Shown here in pieces: positions 13,727 to 63,967 of a DNA stretch of 64,000 nucleotides. Within the stretch, counting starts at the first letter, position 1. The number at the start of each line of letters is the position of its first letter. A program made the translations under genes and the position numbers. The notes under the pieces are model-generated. The model was not told the origin of the DNA, made no database searches, and saw nothing but the letters and a program-made list of their open reading frames with translations. This DNA comes from Pirellulaceae bacterium (GTDB lineage: Bacteria; Planctomycetota; Planctomycetia; Pirellulales; Pirellulaceae). The DNA is taken from the NCBI GenBank assembly GCA_019636375.1, contig JAHBXS010000004.1, positions 496,001-560,000 of the forward strand, given 5' to 3'.

Positions 13727-13841
13727 GCATGCTCCTTCAGTGCGTCCGAATTTTTCACAGTGTGAAAACCCACGTGGCCGTTCACTCCAGGAACCGCAAC
13801 TCCAATTCGCAACCCCTCCCAAACCCATCCAACCAATTTCG

Positions 13842-13972
13842 CGCACCATCTTTTACCCAACATCTTTTACCAAAAAAACAATCGCACCATCATCTCAAGC
13901 GAAAGCCCCATGTCCTCCCATAGTCAGCGTGACGATTTGGTACAAGATGTTGGGTAAAAGGTGACCATGCTC
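13842..13972. repeat. Palindromic repeat unit, copy 1
   Basis: A 131-bp unit whose ends form a 21-base inverted repeat (ttttacccaacatctttt... at 13851-13871 against ...agatgttgggtaaaa at 13939-13959, one mismatch). The same unit recurs 225 bp downstream. It encodes nothing. The structure resembles a small non-autonomous element or a structured repeat. Confidence 0.75.
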
Positions 13973-14065
13973 AAGGGAGTGGAATAAGGGCCAGCGAAAT
14001 TGGTGCCAAGCAAATTTTCAAAGTGCATCAATGGCACCAATTCTCCATTTTTCAAAACCTCCACG

Positions 14066-14197
14066 CGCAACATCTTTTACCCTTCATCTTTTACCATCAA
14101 AAACAATCGCTCCATCATCTCAAGCAAGAATCCAACGCCCTCCCATAGTCAACGTGACGATTTGGTAAAAGATGTTGGGTAAAAGATGACCATGCTC
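14066..14197. repeat. Palindromic repeat unit, copy 2
   Basis: Second copy of the unit at 13842-13972, about 85% identical by eye, with inner core identity in acaatcgc, ccatcatctcaagc and ctcccatagtca/aacgtgacga. The right arm here reads ggtaaaagatgttgggtaaa. Similarity continues weakly past the unit (aaattggtgccaag against aaattgtgccaag), so the tandem period is about 225 bp. Confidence 0.75.
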
Positions 14198-14526
14198 TAG
14201 CACCCGCCAAATTGTGCCAAGTTGCCTATGTAATGCATCGCGCATTTGCCTGAAAGGCTATCTCTCTCCCAGTCCAGGGAAGAGCGAGGGTTAGATGCCC
14301 ATCGAACCCTCGCGCCGCCCTGGGTACACGCCCCACACGTTCCCTTTCCGGCCCAATGGGCCAACCGATCTACATTCCGATCAAAAATGTATAGCCACCC
14401 CAAAAGCCATGCTACCAATTCAGAAACGCCAAGCACGTTACGTCCGTCAAAATATTTGCCGGAAAAAAAGCAAAGCAGATTCAAAATCCACGTGGGTAAT
14501 ATCGAGCCACGGATGGTACACCGATT

Positions 14527-14612: not shown

Positions 14613-15068
14613 ATTGAATTGGTGCTACCCGACCCCCATTCAACCCCTCAGATAGGCCGCAACCGTCTACACGATCACTAAAAAGAATCGCCTTGTTCCC
14701 CCAACCAATCATACGATGAACCAATCCGGAATCAGAATCGATCATTCCTGTAGGCAAACGCAACTTCTGTCATCACTATCTCGTCATCGGCAACTTTAAT
14801 TCCCACATCCGTCTATTGATCACTGAAATCTATCCATCGAAAATCGCGGCCAACCAGCCACCGAACCAATTTTCAAACCTCCCCGCAAATCAAGCCCGCT
14901 AGCGCGTCAATACGGGATTATCCGCGCTAGCCGAGCTTTTCCCGAAACCAACTTGTTGACTGAGTTTTAAAATTTATCTACACTGTAACCGAGGTTTTAG
15001 CCGTTTTTTATCCACTTATCACGCGCTAGCCGATGATAATTACAAGTTCGTCGCTACTTGAGGGCTGA

Positions 15069-15473
15069 CCAATCCACCAATACAAACGCCGTACCTTTGA
15101 CGAATGCTTGAAGATTGCCCTCGATGCGTTCTCGGTGAGCGCGAAGCAGCACTTGACTCCCGCTCAATTCGAATACTGTGTAAAAGAGGCGTGTCTTGGC
15201 GGCGGTTCCGTCTTGCCGGGATGGGCTGAAATAATCGGAAATGAACCTGATGATCGTCATCATTACGAGATACGTGTGACTGATTGGATGGACAAATCGC
15301 GGCCGCAGGATAAACGAACTTGGGTTAGAATCCTTGTGTCCCGTGACCGCGCCAGCGACTTGTGCGAAATTCAATGGCTAGCAGATCGGGATTGGTTGCC
15401 ATCTTCCCTGCCATCGACAGAATCCGCGACGAACAAACCGATGAACCCAAGCGGCGGATCGGGCGTTTCCTGA
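15069..15473 (+). CDS. Small cassette-type hypothetical protein, 5' end uncertain
   Basis: The open frame runs from a stop at 15066 to 15473. The only usual start codon is TTG at 15108 (121 residues), but the residues upstream (YKRRTFDECLKIALDAF) read like genuine protein, so the true start may have been lost. I recognise no family; the protein is hydrophilic with a Trp-rich middle (VTDWMDKSRPQDKRTWVRI). Its last residues (NKPMNPSGGSGVS) are encoded by the left half of an attC site at 15432-15517, which is common for integron cassette genes. It is the first gene of the cassette cluster. Confidence 0.6.
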   Translation, partial: PIHQYKRRTFDECLKIALDAFSVSAKQHLTPAQFEYCVKEACLGGGSVLPGWAEIIGNEPDDRHHYEIRVTDWMDKSRPQDKRTWVRILVSRDRASDLCEIQWLADRDWLPSSLPSTESATNKPMNPSGGSGVS

Positions 15474-15517
15474 AATCAACATTTATTGGCCGCCGCTGGG
15501 TTATCGGTAGCGTTATG
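15432..15517 (+). other. attC recombination site 1
   Basis: Left arm 15437-15457 (accgatgaacccaagcggcgg) pairs with right arm 15490-15508 (ccgccgctgggttatcggt) perfectly except for two unpaired bases in the left arm (G and A), the extrahelical-base pattern by which integrases choose the attC strand. Outer boxes are aacaaacc on the left and agcgttatg on the right. The loop carries cgggcgtttcctgaaatcaa, shared with sites 2 and 4. Seen directly; assignment to attC follows from known attC architecture. Confidence 0.82.
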
Positions 15518-15985
15518 TCACAAACAATGAATCCGTTCGATTTGCTACGCCCCGATGCCGTTCAAGAGCAATGCGAATGCGACTCGTTAGAACAAGTCGT
15601 GATGGTCAACCTGCTGACAGACAACCCGCTCCATTGCATCAAGTGCCGGAAGGAAATAACACCGGAACGATTACCGCTGACATCGGATGATGTGCGTGAG
15701 ATCTCTGGATGGAACTCGATTGCCAACGCCCTTTACAAACTTTGGCTTGATTCAACCGAATACGAGATATATGCGAAAGAGAAATTACTTGATCCAAACG
15801 GTCACGTGAATCAGCGTGGTTTGGAGGCTGCACGTCACCTGTCATCGAAGATCCCAACATGGTTTTGGTTTTTCCGTGACGCAGATGACGAGATACCAGA
15901 CAACTGCCCAGTCTGTTGTCAACCGCTTGATTCGGATGTGAAGTGGGCGGAACGACGATGCATGAACTGCAGGCTTTACATGTGA
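15515..15985 (+). CDS. Cassette-encoded zinc-ribbon-like protein
   Basis: 156 residues from the ATG at 15515, inside the right box of attC 1 (ATG at 15527 also possible); a longer frame from 15362 runs through the attC and is rejected. Two Cys pairs are visible: CIKCRK near residue 43 and CPVCC with CMNC at the C-terminus, consistent with zinc ribbons. The middle part (ALYKLWLDSTEYEIYAKEKL, VNQRGLEAARHLS) resembles the DUF2310 family of small zinc-ribbon proteins, a guess from memory. It lies between attC 1 and attC 2 in cassette orientation. Confidence 0.75.
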   Translation: MSQTMNPFDLLRPDAVQEQCECDSLEQVVMVNLLTDNPLHCIKCRKEITPERLPLTSDDVREISGWNSIANALYKLWLDSTEYEIYAKEKLLDPNGHVNQRGLEAARHLSSKIPTWFWFFRDADDEIPDNCPVCCQPLDSDVKWAERRCMNCRLYM

Positions 15986-16015
15986 GATCTAGTGAACACT
16001 GCGTCGCCGACCAAC

Positions 16016-16107
16016 GTAACAGAACAAAAAAATGCACCCGAGTTGCCGATCGGGCGTTTCCGGAAGTCAAAGTCACTTGGCGGCAACCGGGTGATTTTAG
16101 CCGTACT
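16016..16107 (+). other. attC recombination site 2
   Basis: Left arm 16029-16048 (aaaatgcacccgagttgccg) pairs with right arm 16081-16098 (cggcaaccgggtgatttt), again with unpaired G and A only in the left arm. The loop repeats atcgggcgtttccggaagtcaa from site 1 with two changes. Left box gtaacagaacaa; right box is degenerate (agccgtactg). Confidence 0.78.
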
Positions 16108-16115
16108 GCGACTGA

Positions 16116-16664
16116 ATGGAACAGCACAAACCTACTGACGAACACTGCCCTTCGTGCGGCGCTGACATCGTGTATTGGCTGCCATCTGGCATGTTGGTCG
16201 CCGATTGCTTCACGAAAATTCGCGCCATCACAAGCTTTCCGCAGGCGGTTGATGTAGACAAGCCGCAGCATCCCGGACGGTACTGTGCTGGCGGATGCGG
16301 AGGCGAGTTCTTCAACTTCGGTAACGATGAACTTTGGGCAAAGTTGGAGGCTGATCGAAAGCGACGCGAGACCGCTTCGATCATCGTCGAGTCCACTACT
16401 CCTCACGAATCGCCTCTTGCGAACTACAAAATCTATTTTGATCGCAACGTTCGGCGGACCGCTCCACGCGACAAGGCTCCACGCAATTCTGAGTACATTG
16501 AACTTGAACCTGGCGAACACACGATTGTTGTACGGGACTATGACCATCTCGCCGTTGCTCGTCGCGAATCAAATACGATATACTTCTCGGTGTCCGACGC
16601 CGAGCAACTGCGTTTTTTGTTCACGGTAGTTGACGGTACGCTCACTATCCAGAAAGTCGGATAA
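16116..16664 (+). CDS. Cassette-encoded hypothetical protein with N-terminal zinc ribbon
   Basis: 182 residues from the ATG at 16116, nine bases after attC 2. CPSCG at about 11-15 and CAGGCG at about 57-62 could bind zinc. The C-terminal 100 residues, which include a conserved-looking IELEPGEHTIVVRDYDHL segment, match no family I know. The stop codon TAA is the first base triplet of the left box of a half attC site (ataaccaagcgatg), as in classical cassettes. Function unknown. Confidence 0.75.
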   Translation: MEQHKPTDEHCPSCGADIVYWLPSGMLVADCFTKIRAITSFPQAVDVDKPQHPGRYCAGGCGGEFFNFGNDELWAKLEADRKRRETASIIVESTTPHESPLANYKIYFDRNVRRTAPRDKAPRNSEYIELEPGEHTIVVRDYDHLAVARRESNTIYFSVSDAEQLRFLFTVVDGTLTIQKVG

Positions 16665-16689
16665 CCAAGCGATGAACACGGAGTGGCCG
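16662..16689 (+). other. attC half-site 3 (left half only)
   Basis: taaccaagcgatgaacacgg followed by agtggccg matches the left box and left arm of the neighbouring attC sites, including the spacing of the extra G and A. No complementary right arm is found in the next 600 bases. The site is therefore truncated, just before an IS110 remnant and other foreign sequence. Confidence 0.65.
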
Positions 16690-16777
16690 ACAGCTCGTCT
16701 ATGGCCCTTGAAGTCAAGTAGTACATACTTTTTTCGGCGGAAAAAGTGGCAGATTTTTTTTCCTTGTGGGGAATGAG

Positions 16778-16827
16778 AGTCTCCATATCCTCTAAAGGCC
16801 CTCCCGGGCGTTCTGAGGATATGGAGA
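16778..16827. repeat. 14-bp perfect inverted repeat
   Basis: gtctccatatcctc at 16778-16791 and gaggatatggagac at 16814-16827 pair perfectly around a 22-base GC-rich loop. No gene reads through it. It lies between the attC half-site and the IS110 remnant; it might be an IS target, an IS end or the stem of a lost site. Confidence 0.6.
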
Positions 16828-16934
16828 CGGGCCGGGATCGATTCGCTCGACCCCCTTCCGCGTCTCGGTACTGCTCGACTTACCTTGGGTGGAGTGATCG
16901 GGGACCGGTGCCTCGTGCTGATGCCGAACAGTAC

Positions 16935-17137
16935 CAGTTGAAGGTTGATTCGCAGCCCACGACGAGATTTTCGCGGAACGGCTGAATTTCCGTGAGAAAG
17001 GTCTCGGAGTCTTGGCACTGGAAATTTTTGTGGAGGCGTTTTTCGCCGTTTTGATCGATGATGCAGACGAAAAAGCTCTTTGCATGCAGATCGATTCCTG
17101 CGTAGAATAAATGCTGTTGATTATAGAATTTCATCAT
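16935..17137 (-). pseudogene. IS110-family transposase, N-terminal remnant
   Basis: The minus strand from 17137 reads MMKFYNQQHLFYAGIDLHAK, then about 45 residues ending VVGCESTFNWY, the start of the DEDD RuvC-like domain of IS110 transposases with the first Asp in AGIDLHAK and the Glu in GCEST. After NWY the similarity stops and the frame runs 17 unrelated residues to a stop at 16880. The remaining 250 or more residues, including the C-terminal Ser domain, are missing. It differs from the IS110 at 60.8 kb, so it is an independent, older insertion. Confidence 0.8.
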
Positions 17138-17244
17138 CGGTCTCTTTCGGTTTGAGTGACTTGAGCCAAATACGTTTGAGTCCCGAGCTCGTTAAAGGTT
17201 AATCCATTGTGGACAATTACCAATGTTATGGGGCCATAATGAGT

Positions 17245-17340
17245 ATTTACGCGATGCAACGGAGCGAAAATGGCGTTCCGTTTTTTTCCTGAAATCAAGA
17301 TAACTCGCGCCATTTTCGCCCGTTTATCGCCAGCGTTCGG
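17245..17340 (+). other. attC recombination site 4
   Basis: Left arm 17251-17275 (gcgatgcaacgg then agcgaaaatggcg) pairs with right arm 17308-17330 (cgccattttcgcccg then tttatcgc), with unpaired G and A in the left arm at the same places as in sites 1 and 2. The loop contains tttcctgaaatcaa, identical to site 1. The right box is cagcgttcggcc; the left box is weak. Confidence 0.75.
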
Positions 17341-17356
17341 CCAATACAAATTCGCA

Positions 17357-17977
17357 ATGCCTGATCCAAAGACAGACTTCCAGAAGGCCAAGCAGTTCGC
17401 ATTCGGCGGCCCTGCAGCAAAGCTGACGGCGGCGACATCAGCCTTGTCTGTAGCACGCCTCATCTTCGATGCGTTCACTTTGCAGTTCTCTACTTTGATC
17501 GCGAACGTCTTCAATGTTTATAGGGCAGTTTTTCACAAGCCTTTCGACCTGCTTTTCGGGTGGCTGCATTGGACGATTCCTCCTTGGGGTAAGGACGCTT
17601 TGATTCTCTATGTCATTTTGGGGTTTGTGTATCAGAGAGTGGTGTGGCAGAAGCTCCGATTCGATTTCCTCCATCCGTGGGTCGTTCAACACAACTTCAA
17701 GAACAGCCGTTTTCGCTACCGCGTGTATGCCGCAGGGCAGATGTTGAAAGCTTGTCTTTTGTGGCCTCTCTTTATTCCCGAGACATTCAAGAGGCCATAC
17801 TTGGTGGTTTATAGCGGGGCACATGGCCCGTCCTCGATGCAGTATTCACCCAGCAAGCCCAGTGAACAGATGCGGGCACACTACTGCGGAGATTCCCGCC
17901 TCATCATATTGCTACGCTTGGCATCGGCCATCGTAGGCGCAGCCATCATTATAGCCCTGAACTATGCTTCCAGCTAA
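17357..17977 (+). CDS. Cassette-encoded membrane protein of unknown function
   Basis: 206 residues from the ATG at 17357 (a longer frame to 17270 runs through the attC stem and is rejected). About three hydrophobic segments are visible: around 90-110, 145-160 and 185-203 near the C-terminus. Charged loops separate them (VVWQKLRFDFLHPWVVQHNF). No family recognised. It begins 17 bases after the right box of attC 4, as cassette genes do, and is followed by a weaker candidate attC at about 17985-18058. Confidence 0.72.
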   Translation: MPDPKTDFQKAKQFAFGGPAAKLTAATSALSVARLIFDAFTLQFSTLIANVFNVYRAVFHKPFDLLFGWLHWTIPPWGKDALILYVILGFVYQRVVWQKLRFDFLHPWVVQHNFKNSRFRYRVYAAGQMLKACLLWPLFIPETFKRPYLVVYSGAHGPSSMQYSPSKPSEQMRAHYCGDSRLIILLRLASAIVGAAIIIALNYASS

Positions 17978-17984
17978 GTCACAG

Positions 17985-18058
17985 TAATATTACGCCACGC
18001 GAAGGCCGAACAAGGCGCGGCTGTACTGCCGCTGGGGCTGCTCTGTCGGCCATGCGTT
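17985..18058 (+). other. Weak attC candidate 5
   Basis: Directly after the membrane protein stop, ggccgaacaag on the left can pair with ctgtcggcc on the right, with an unpaired A, and the right box catgcgttccgt resembles cagcgttcgg of site 4. The pairing is shorter and the shared loop motif is absent, so this is only a candidate. Confidence 0.35.
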
Positions 18059-24062: not shown

Positions 24063-25289
24063 CTAGACTCCAGATTCAGGACCGGGCGTAAATTGAGATT
24101 GCGGGTAGAACTCCAGAAGTCGCTCCTTCGCTTGTTGGAGGGGCAGCACTCTCCATATCCCCGCCGTATCACAAGTTGCCAAGCGATATTTCCGCAATTT
24201 CTCAATTGCATCGGGGATGTCGAAGGCTAGTTGTTGACCTGTGAATTCGGCAAGCAATTTCGGAGCCCGTTCACACAGATCACCTTCGGACAGACCGTCC
24301 TTTTCCGGCAATAATAAACAGTAGACCAGAATTGTCTCACAAACCTCTTGCTCTTCCGCTTCGCGAAACAGTCGATAAATGACACCCAAATTATTGTCAA
24401 GATTTTTTAAGTACAAATTGCGGGTCAGCCCAAACTGATACTTGTCTTTGGTTCGCAGATAGCTGAGCAATCCCCGAATCAAATAAAAACCGAGTACGGC
24501 ACCAAATAGGAGCCAATTGTAAAATGCTGAGAGGGTGAAAATCGTCAGAATCATCGCCCCACGGGTCACCTTGAATATGGCAAGTGCTGCACCCGAAAGG
24601 GATGGGATCAAAATCTTGCCACGGTCAATCAGACTGAGCTTGATCGTCGATCCCGGCAGCAAAATCTCCAATTCATTTTCGGGGATGTTTTTGAAAATTT
24701 TGAGGTAGACCACTCCCGATTGCATCGCTGGGCTCACCCTCGCGGCTTCCTTTAGTTGAAACGCCAATACCAAACGATGAAACTCGGGAAACTCGACCTC
24801 CTCCAAGCGAAAAAAGTTCGCCAATCTTCGGCGTTTCTTCTTGATGCGACGATAGCCCCGAGCGAACACCTCCAATCGCTGAAAAATCGAAAAATCCAAA
24901 CTCAAATGTACGCCCCAATGCCAACCGAGTTTGACCGCTTGATTGAGCTCCGTTTGGTTGAGTTGATGGTAATGGGCCGCAGCCAGAACTCTCGACAATT
25001 CGGCAAAAAGAGGATTGGTGTCCTCAGAGCTAGGCTCGTGGTCACCGCCGTTGTTGGGATCATGATCTGGGTCGAAGGGCTCGTAAAGGTCTTCGAGAGC
25101 GACAAGTTGCCCTTGATGTTCCAGATGAAATACCGTCACCAAAGAATGAAACAAAGCGTCGAGGCGATTTTCATCCACGGGCACTTTGGCCGACAGCCAA
25201 TTGACCAATCGCTCGATCAAGGCGCGATGGCGAAACGGAATAAAATTCTCGCCGAAAGTCTCAGTTGCAGAAATATTTGTTGCATTCAT
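24063..25289 (-). CDS. TMEM143/DUF3754 family membrane protein
   Basis: 408 residues. The segment YRRIKKKRRRLANFFRLEEV, then EFPEFHRLVLAFQLK, followed by IFKNIPENELEILLPGSTIK and two membrane helices (about 230-270) match DUF3754, the family of human TMEM143. Function is unknown in bacteria. An Asp/Asn-rich low-complexity stretch (EPFDPDHDPNNGGDHEPSSE) lies at about 70-90. It faces the ATPase gene tail to tail with a 41-base gap and is transcribed alone, downstream of the choice-of-anchor gene. Confidence 0.8.
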   Translation of the reverse strand: MNATNISATETFGENFIPFRHRALIERLVNWLSAKVPVDENRLDALFHSLVTVFHLEHQGQLVALEDLYEPFDPDHDPNNGGDHEPSSEDTNPLFAELSRVLAAAHYHQLNQTELNQAVKLGWHWGVHLSLDFSIFQRLEVFARGYRRIKKKRRRLANFFRLEEVEFPEFHRLVLAFQLKEAARVSPAMQSGVVYLKIFKNIPENELEILLPGSTIKLSLIDRGKILIPSLSGAALAIFKVTRGAMILTIFTLSAFYNWLLFGAVLGFYLIRGLLSYLRTKDKYQFGLTRNLYLKNLDNNLGVIYRLFREAEEQEVCETILVYCLLLPEKDGLSEGDLCERAPKLLAEFTGQQLAFDIPDAIEKLRKYRLATCDTAGIWRVLPLQQAKERLLEFYPQSQFTPGPESGV

Positions 25290-62210: not shown

Positions 62211-62884
62211 AGCCCATGCACATACCGACGAACGAATTGGCCTTGCTCGCCTTTTTTGAACCAAGCTCAAGGGGACAACCAGTATCGCTGTCTGATCAAC
62301 GAGTTCGGCGAACGAATCGGACCTTTTGAGCGTTTTTCGACTGACTCTTTACGAACATAACCAACGATTTCGAAACCCCAAACGACCATTGATTCTGAAG
62401 GAGAGCCACCGGCCGAACACACTGACGAACGTCCAGGACGAAGACCAACCCATTGGACACCAGCACGACCAACAAATGACCCTGCAGCTTCCCACTTTAG
62501 GACTCGAACGCGAGCATGCAACTTGTTCGACGAAGCCGCAGACAGGTCGCCCTAAAGAAGGTGCAGTCCACGGGAGAGAAGCTTGCTGCTCACTAGAAGC
62601 CTCCAGGCAAGCTTTGGCCAAAGAACGGAACAAACACTCGAACCAGAATGATTTGAACCGTGCATGGATAACTGAGGGAACGCAGCCCGCACAAGCAGGC
62701 GTACCAGAACGAAATGCGTTCACACCTCGAATAGTCGTTTAATCAAACATCCTGAACTGAGTCATTGTGAATAAAGCCGCCGAGCACTTCCTCAGCAATC
62801 CCAAACAAGGAACTCAATCATGTAATCCAAAAACACTTCTCAAAAAAAGGGGCCCAACCCACTTGCCAAACCCAGGACTTCATA
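62211..62884. other. Region without a convincing gene between IS110 and the AbiTii cassette
   Basis: About 670 bases. Frames of 84-138 codons occur on both strands at 62267-62742 but have skewed composition and no family features. No repeat or hairpin stands out. It may belong to an older insertion. Confidence 0.45.
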
Positions 62885-62971
62885 GTCGTCAACGATCACC
62901 GGGCCGCCGGTGTGATCGTTCCATTCAAAACACGCGTTGTCGGCGGCTCCGCGTGCATCGTGTTGTTATGC
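62885..62971 (-). other. attC recombination site 6 (minus orientation)
   Basis: On the minus strand the left box gcataacaacacg is followed by acgatgcacgcggagccgcc (ending g), which pairs with cggcggcccggtgatcgt on the far side except for extra G, G and A in the left arm. Right box gatcgttgacg. The arm motif gatg-ac-cgga-g is the same as in sites 1-4 at 15-17 kb. The TAA stop of the AbiTii gene is the first part of the left box, the usual cassette arrangement. Confidence 0.82.
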
Positions 62972-63967
62972 ACCGAACGTTAAGGATATTGCTGCAGCGG
63001 CAACCCCTACACCAATGTCTCGTGCAACATTCAAGGTCCATTTCCCTGCGGCTTTGAGATACTCCAATGCTTTGGCCCCGTCGCCGTTCTCCGCGCACTG
63101 GCGAGCTGCTTCGACATTTCCGATTGCGATTTGATGTTCCGGTTCAGACGCGCGTTCTTTCATTGCCCCGACAAGTGATTCAAGGTCTGCTGCAAGTTTA
63201 TGGAGGTCGATATCGCCAGCATTCTGAATCCAGAGCTGATTGAACGTGTTGCCATGTGCGATTGCGTGTGGTCCAACCGCCCCAGCCTGTCCGGTTTCGT
63301 ATTTGTCACCCATATGAAGATCTCCGGATTGTTTCTCGAATATTGTGCAGTTGCTGTAGATGACGCGATCAACAAGGCGTGAAACCTCGGATACGGAGAC
63401 ATTGTTGATTGCATCGGGATCATTTTCTAATTCAGGGTATGTTTCGCGAAGCTCAATCAAGAAGTCCAACAAGCGCGTGCGGATTGCGTGTAGGACTCCG
63501 CGAACCGATGATTTTGTGAAGATCGCTTGAATTGACTGCATCTCCTGACCGGATACGCGAACACATGGTCCGGAACGAATCAATTGGACGATTTCAATGC
63601 CAAAATGGCGATGGAACGTTTGAGAATCGGTGTCAAGCATTGCCTCGATTTCGCCAATGTTTTCCAGAAAGCAATGTCGCTCAACGAAGTCTTTGACGTT
63701 CTGTGGGAAATCGGTAAGCGAGAGCGGAACATTTTTCGTCCGCGCACCAAATCGTCCCCAAAAGTCGGCCAAGAGCCTTGGATAGATTATGCGATACTCA
63801 GGCAGAGAATCGACGTCTGGGTATCGATTAAGCTCGGCGTCAACCCAGTTGCGGAATTTCCGGCTACGCATTCTTGCCGCCAACAGCTTTGATTTGAGCA
63901 AGACGGCGGAAAGCGTGTGATTGCTTTCGTCGGCGACTTCTTCGATCAACGTTGAAAACTTGGTCAT
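62966..63967 (-). CDS. AbiTii-domain protein in an integron cassette
   Basis: 333 residues. The N-terminal 95 match the AbiTii domain: FSTLIEEVADESNHTLSAVL, LLAARMRSRKFRNWVDAELN, LPEYRIIYPRL. A middle region of unknown fold (100-215) leads to DLHMGDKYETGQAGAVGPHA, then QNAGDIDLHKLAADLESLVG and IAIGNVEAARQCAENGDGAK with ALEYLKAAGKW, a C-terminal module found in many proteins of conflict systems. AbiTii proteins are linked to abortive phage defence. The gene ends inside attC 6; just upstream, at 63973-63990, gttatgcacc could be the right box of the preceding attC, cut by the window end. Confidence 0.85.
   Translation of the reverse strand: MTKFSTLIEEVADESNHTLSAVLLKSKLLAARMRSRKFRNWVDAELNRYPDVDSLPEYRIIYPRLLADFWGRFGARTKNVPLSLTDFPQNVKDFVERHCFLENIGEIEAMLDTDSQTFHRHFGIEIVQLIRSGPCVRVSGQEMQSIQAIFTKSSVRGVLHAIRTRLLDFLIELRETYPELENDPDAINNVSVSEVSRLVDRVIYSNCTIFEKQSGDLHMGDKYETGQAGAVGPHAIAHGNTFNQLWIQNAGDIDLHKLAADLESLVGAMKERASEPEHQIAIGNVEAARQCAENGDGAKALEYLKAAGKWTLNVARDIGVGVAAAAISLTFGA

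Follow-up and report, generated by a model that had tools for sequence, protein, structure and literature searches.

Dispersed attI copies heading integrase-less cassette arrays in a bacterial genome with a single intact intI

The cassette array at 14898-18011 of the window (the 64-kb stretch of DNA analysed, G000:C4:496001-560000) is probably, at roughly 0.8, an integron platform lacking intI, one of about 13 attI copies in its genome and loaded in trans by a single IntI. The genome spans 5.24 Mb in 8 contigs and is 94% complete; C1, C2, C4 and C8 denote its contigs, and positions without a contig label are window coordinates. Its sequence shows attC sites and attI copies, GTT junctions that are exact, cassettes with complementary ends and one intact intI. 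The platform as we read it would start with attI and its cassette promoter and continue with about five cassettes, the third of which has its attC interrupted by an IS110-type element. We propose the term 'distributed integron' for this arrangement, whose parts are known and of which we found no description. The features of the locus are:

14035-14371: upstream repeat block with AACATCTTTTACC hairpins; shares 93% identity with the block behind a truncated intI at C1:136 kb
14690-14869: segment of 180 bp sharing 91% identity with the flank upstream of the attI copy in which C8 ends
14898-15048 (+): attI copy, 151 bp, 94% identical to the intI-adjacent attI at C1:6999-7150
14898 / 14923 (+): inverted repeat GCTAGCGCG..CGCGCTAGC within the attI copy
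14923 and 15022 (+): direct repeats CGCGCTAGCCGA of attI, with an inverted copy at 14898
14956-14984 (+): putative cassette promoter Pc, TTGACT-17-TACACT, sigma-70-like, 9/12 matches
15046-15048 (+): attI crossover GTT, where cassette 1 starts
15047-15512 (+): cassette 1, ORF 15108-15473 (121 aa) with weak DUF440 similarity, below cut-off
15425-15521 (+): complete attC of cassette 1 (R2 E = 4.9e-20)
15513-16103 (+): cassette 2, between attC sites, ORF ~15509-15985 encoding a Zn-ribbon protein
16016-16112 (+): complete attC of cassette 2, R' mutated to GTA (R2 E = 4.9e-16)
16104-16697 (+): cassette 3, ORF 16116-16664 (182 aa) with a Zn-ribbon-like N-terminus, by direct reading
16659-16697 (+): left half of the attC of cassette 3, GGATAACCAAGCGATGAACACGGAG..., by direct reading
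16698 to ~17246 (-): IS110-type insertion sequence remnant interrupting the attC of cassette 3
16880-17137 (-): transposase N-terminal fragment in this remnant (PF01548 DEDD_Tnp_IS110, 20.9 bits, below cut-off)
17238-17344 (+): attC, stem complete, R'' removed by the IS insertion (R2 E = 2.6e-6), R' GTTCGGCC at 17335
17336-18011 (+): last cassette, membrane protein ORF 17357-17977; rest of its attC eroded

An earlier note on this DNA had described three complete attC-like palindromes and a half site, with cassette genes in one orientation. The palindromes, at 15425, 16016 and 17238, fold as described, with a shared loop and with the additional G and A confined to the left arm; the half site is real, being the left part of the attC broken by the IS110-type remnant; and the genes do share one orientation. 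The attI and putative promoter at 14898-15048 had been missed; their presence sets the locus apart from a simple attC cluster. A plain search for the motif GATGNACNCGGAG, allowing one mismatch, discriminated only weakly across the genome (97 matches vs 53 in the reversed control), so that structure was needed to find attC sites. A structural descriptor for attC-like stem-loops, run on ~258 kb of genome DNA, gave 38 matches against 2 in the reversed sequence. The covariance model R1 was built from 27 attC sites from the descriptor scan (94.9% of alignment cells paired; covariation score equalled in 0 of 500 shuffles), and the model R2 from 39 attC sites, all from other genomes, which avoids circularity in the window search. 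Such a model was the check that the earlier note had proposed for sites at 15432, 16016 and 17245, and R2 matched all three. The window attC sites have the conserved R and L boxes and the stem with extrahelical bases seen in integrons. One of the 38 descriptor matches, at 24311-24438, isolated and weak, was unsupported by the covariance models. Rfam, which may lack an attC model, gave no match in the window at gathering thresholds.

Genome-wide, R1 at E ≤ 3.5e-4 found 60 attC sites. By our count 53 of these follow an attI copy within ~11 kb and in the correct orientation, and the palindromes were not seen strewn among core genes; the other seven adjoin intI relics, flank remnants or IS110 remnants. 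R2 found four attC in all in the 64-kb window. The fourth, 62877-62974 (-) (E = 9.7e-14), lies near the window end and is absent from the earlier note. A decayed intI fragment, C4:560237-560422 (+), stands 237 bases past the window and ~1.3 kb beyond this attC; it covers model positions 2-58 and has one stop. Together the two are a relic integron, separate from the array at 14898-18011.

The window attI and the intI-adjacent attI on C1 share their sequence through ACAAGTT (ACAA|GTT) and diverge fully beyond it, the pattern that insertion of different cassettes at GTT would produce. By this homology and the exact GTT junction, the window array has an attI at its head, as an integron does. The intI in cis of a complete integron is absent from the window, as had been reported (tblastn with the genome's IntI gave only 26 bits), and the intact gene is on a different contig. 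Scanning the window attI for Pc found 1 site against 0.3 in shuffles. The TTGACT-17-TACACT promoter was matched in 10 of the 11 attI copies tested and is retained in the attI of G004, a relative from the same genus. The promoters at the attI copies are predicted to be active, and each copy would express its first cassettes from its own. AACATCTTTTACC inverted repeats occur at 13840-13975 and 14064-14200, as well as ahead of several attI copies and at other places in the genome; they are possibly involved in attI dispersal.

The first bases of a cassette (R') are expected to be complementary to R'' at its far end. Cassette 1 has 8/8 complementary ends, GTTCGTCG (5' end, 15046) and R'' CGACGAAC (15427-15434), and so does the last cassette, GTTCGGCC (17335) and R'' GGCCGAAC (18004-18011), which runs slightly beyond the end at 17977 given earlier. 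Across the genome, 22 of 32 testable cassettes have 8/8 complementary ends (2000 shuffled pairings: mean 2.0, maximum 8). The first cassette scores 8/8 at six attI copies (those of the window, C1:7 kb, C1:135 kb, C1:370 kb, C2:605 kb and C8/C4) and 7/8 at a seventh, C1:438 kb; five of these seven have no intI in cis. Judged by their ends, the cassettes are intact units, predicted to be mobile. The longest ORF runs along the array direction in 33 of the 37 cassettes having an ORF of ≥50 residues. Cassette 1 at C1:438 kb and cassette 4 at C1:135 kb, both small and ORF-poor, are 86% identical over 254 bp, which is consistent with movement between two attI loci.

Blastn of the genome placed attI copies at 12 places on C1, C2, C4 and C8, with 72-98% identity for the 11 besides that of the window. 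A 13th copy at C4:577 kb, found locally, is strongly degraded and lies beside 40 residues of an intI N-terminus. GTT is kept in 11 of the 12 blastn copies and lost from the degenerate copy at C1:100 kb, and the sequences beyond GTT are unrelated between copies. Such an end at GTT followed by unrelated DNA is, as a sequence pattern, the signature of site-specific insertion. Most copies head arrays with different cassettes; the copy at C4:321 kb is followed by no attC. C8 ends within attI, and C4 starts with AACAAGTT followed by a cassette with perfect ends; from this we infer, across a contig break, that the C4 array most likely has the C8 attI at its head and that the contigs are joined. The same two ends make the join likelier than C8 being a circular plasmid. 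Concerted evolution of attI was also considered and is unsupported, attI not being consistently more alike than its flank across pairs of copies.

The one intact intI of the genome, C1:7198-8571, encodes 457 aa and scores 423 bits with TIGR02249 (cut-off 265), so that the search for intI proposed in the earlier note did yield an integrase, on another contig. Residues 145-455 align to VchIntI4 (2A3V), with the catalytic R, H, R, H and Y all kept. The cassettes of the C1 array lead away from intI on the opposite strand. The best full-length relative of this IntI comes from a Planctomycetaceae MAG, which makes a planctomycete the probable host. The N-terminal extension of the C1 IntI, ~140 residues long, has a similar counterpart in the Planctomycetaceae MAG L066. 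At four loci (C1:135.9 kb, C4:577 kb, C4:560 kb and C1:1075 kb) fragments of intI persist close to attI or attC.

At least eight attI copies (C1:370, 438, 1194 and 100 kb; C2:605 kb; C4:156 and 321 kb; C8) have a common 300-860 bp of non-intI DNA directly behind attI, and tblastn found no trace of intI upstream of these copies. Two old intI relics (C4:560 kb and C1:1075 kb) have part of this shared DNA behind them as well, and we therefore interpret it as DNA that once flanked the 3' end of an intI.

Multiplication of attI extends beyond this genome and is not universal. G004 has one attI, next to its intI, with a classical array, and the complete genome G015 has one attI with a large array. 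The complete genome G023, from another genus, has three attI, one next to its intI; the two extra copies, 97-100% identical over ~120 bp, have a truncated intI and head other arrays. An abundant repeat beside the G023 attI query was rejected as attI, being a different element, apparently IS91-like (by eye).

The shared intI-less junction suggests that intI was lost in an ancestor before the copies dispersed. Since the first cassettes at these copies differ and have exact junctions, the copies would have been filled after dispersal, which would require an IntI from elsewhere. The intact IntI on C1 most likely acts in trans on attI copies without intI, moving cassettes in and out through attI x attC recombination. 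One could instead suppose independent integrons, each once with intI in cis and later deprived of it, in which all loading was in cis and the present copies are fossils. The intI fragments at four loci, the truncated intI at both extra G023 copies and the partial decay of many arrays fit that history, which we nevertheless consider unlikely: the loss of intI before dispersal, the differing first cassettes of the shared-junction copies (several with perfect ends) and the lack of any upstream intI trace in tblastn all argue against it. Some copies may be fossils (R' of cassette 2 is mutated, an IS remnant is present, C1:100 kb has lost GTT and C4:321 kb is without attC), some cassettes could have been loaded by an integrase that was in cis at the time, as at the four loci with intI fragments, and a second intI could be missing from an assembly in 8 contigs that is 94% complete.

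Two further explanations were considered. A repeat of the MITE or REP type that merely precedes cassettes by chance would account for the dispersal of the block and for the AACATCTTTTACC hairpins in its outer flank, which are common in the genome; it is very improbable given that 11 of the 12 blastn copies end in the crossover GTT, most of them followed by attC cassettes, and that a homologue adjoins intI as a single copy in G004. Ordinary CALIN formation by off-target insertion at attG-type sites has precedent, in that CALINs of other genera lie at scattered loci and an off-target origin has been proposed for them (PMC12444791, PMC8618304). Here, however, cassettes entered at an attI of 151 bp with a putative promoter, which shares 94% identity with the attI beside intI and recurs at 12-13 places, and because of this attI homology at the insertion point we regard the explanation as hardly credible. 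We tentatively suggest, at somewhat less than even odds, that the promoter-attI block is a dispersing landing pad whose intI-free copies spread through the chromosome and are loaded and reshuffled in trans by one IntI.

In a typical integron a single attI lies next to intI, so that strong expression is confined to the first cassettes. A dispersing landing pad would lift this single-promoter limit by making many cassettes promoter-proximal at once; about 13 promoter-bearing attI and one IntI would then allow many cassettes to be expressed together and shuffled between loci.

Integrons typically have one attI, near the integrase (PMC9024848), and here there are about 13, dispersed, one of them with an intact intI. 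Sedentary chromosomal integrons, such as those of Vibrio (IntI4/2A3V family), are otherwise similar: they share the IntI family, an attI with a promoter (putative here), attC sites bulged in one arm and a single cassette orientation. The window array also resembles a CALIN (PMC9024848, PMC8618304), defined by at least two attC with no intI nearby: it has three attC without a neighbouring intI, and adds a head of attI and promoter, on which the definition is silent. The earlier note's cassette array stands, and its reading as a CALIN without integrase holds for the window but is incomplete for the genome: the array starts at an attI with a putative promoter of its own, and an intact IntI is encoded elsewhere. 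CALINs have been ascribed to off-target insertion, intI loss or rearrangement (PMC8618304), and their mobilisation in trans may occur (PMC12444791). IntegronFinder 2.0 detects attI in class 1 only (PMC9024848), and attI-headed arrays without intI would therefore be filed as CALINs; on-target loading at such copies would give some CALINs a concrete origin that is invisible to standard software. Insertion at attG (PMC12444791) is alike in that IntI loads cassettes in trans away from intI, as it probably does here, but the window target is a dedicated, promoter-bearing attI copy. Delta-attI cassettes, which occur in mobile integrons (PMC12901181), likewise place attI sequence outside its usual position, but as pieces within cassettes, whereas here attI heads chromosomal arrays. 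Searches of the open-access literature, in which subscription journals are mostly absent, found no report of dispersed attI copies; priority for the arrangement is not proven.

Insertion sequences that target attC are known in the IS1111-attC group (Tetu and Holmes 2008, as cited in PMC11187229), which is characterised by a DEDD transposase and a fixed insertion point in attC. The element in the window (C4:512697) likewise has a DEDD-type transposase fragment and lies at attC; this genome has remnants only, nearer IS110 by Pfam. Five further related matches in the genome (C8:9/C1:13, C4:574117, C4:3056 and C4:66676), probably four elements, are all at or near attC. The left ends follow directly after the AAC of R'' at three places, and the window and C4:66 kb copies differ; all are remnants.

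Among the window cassettes, the protein of cassette 2 has a partial DUF2310 match (PF10071, 28.3 bits, over cut-off), and the membrane protein ORF 17357-17977 has no Pfam match. ParE toxin, HEPN_Swt1, Mrr-type endonuclease, GmrSD and TIR domains are encoded by cassettes at L017:128-424(-) and L017:5170-5739(-) and in the C1:135 kb, C1:1194 kb and C4:575 kb arrays; these families are often tied to defence or toxin-antitoxin functions.
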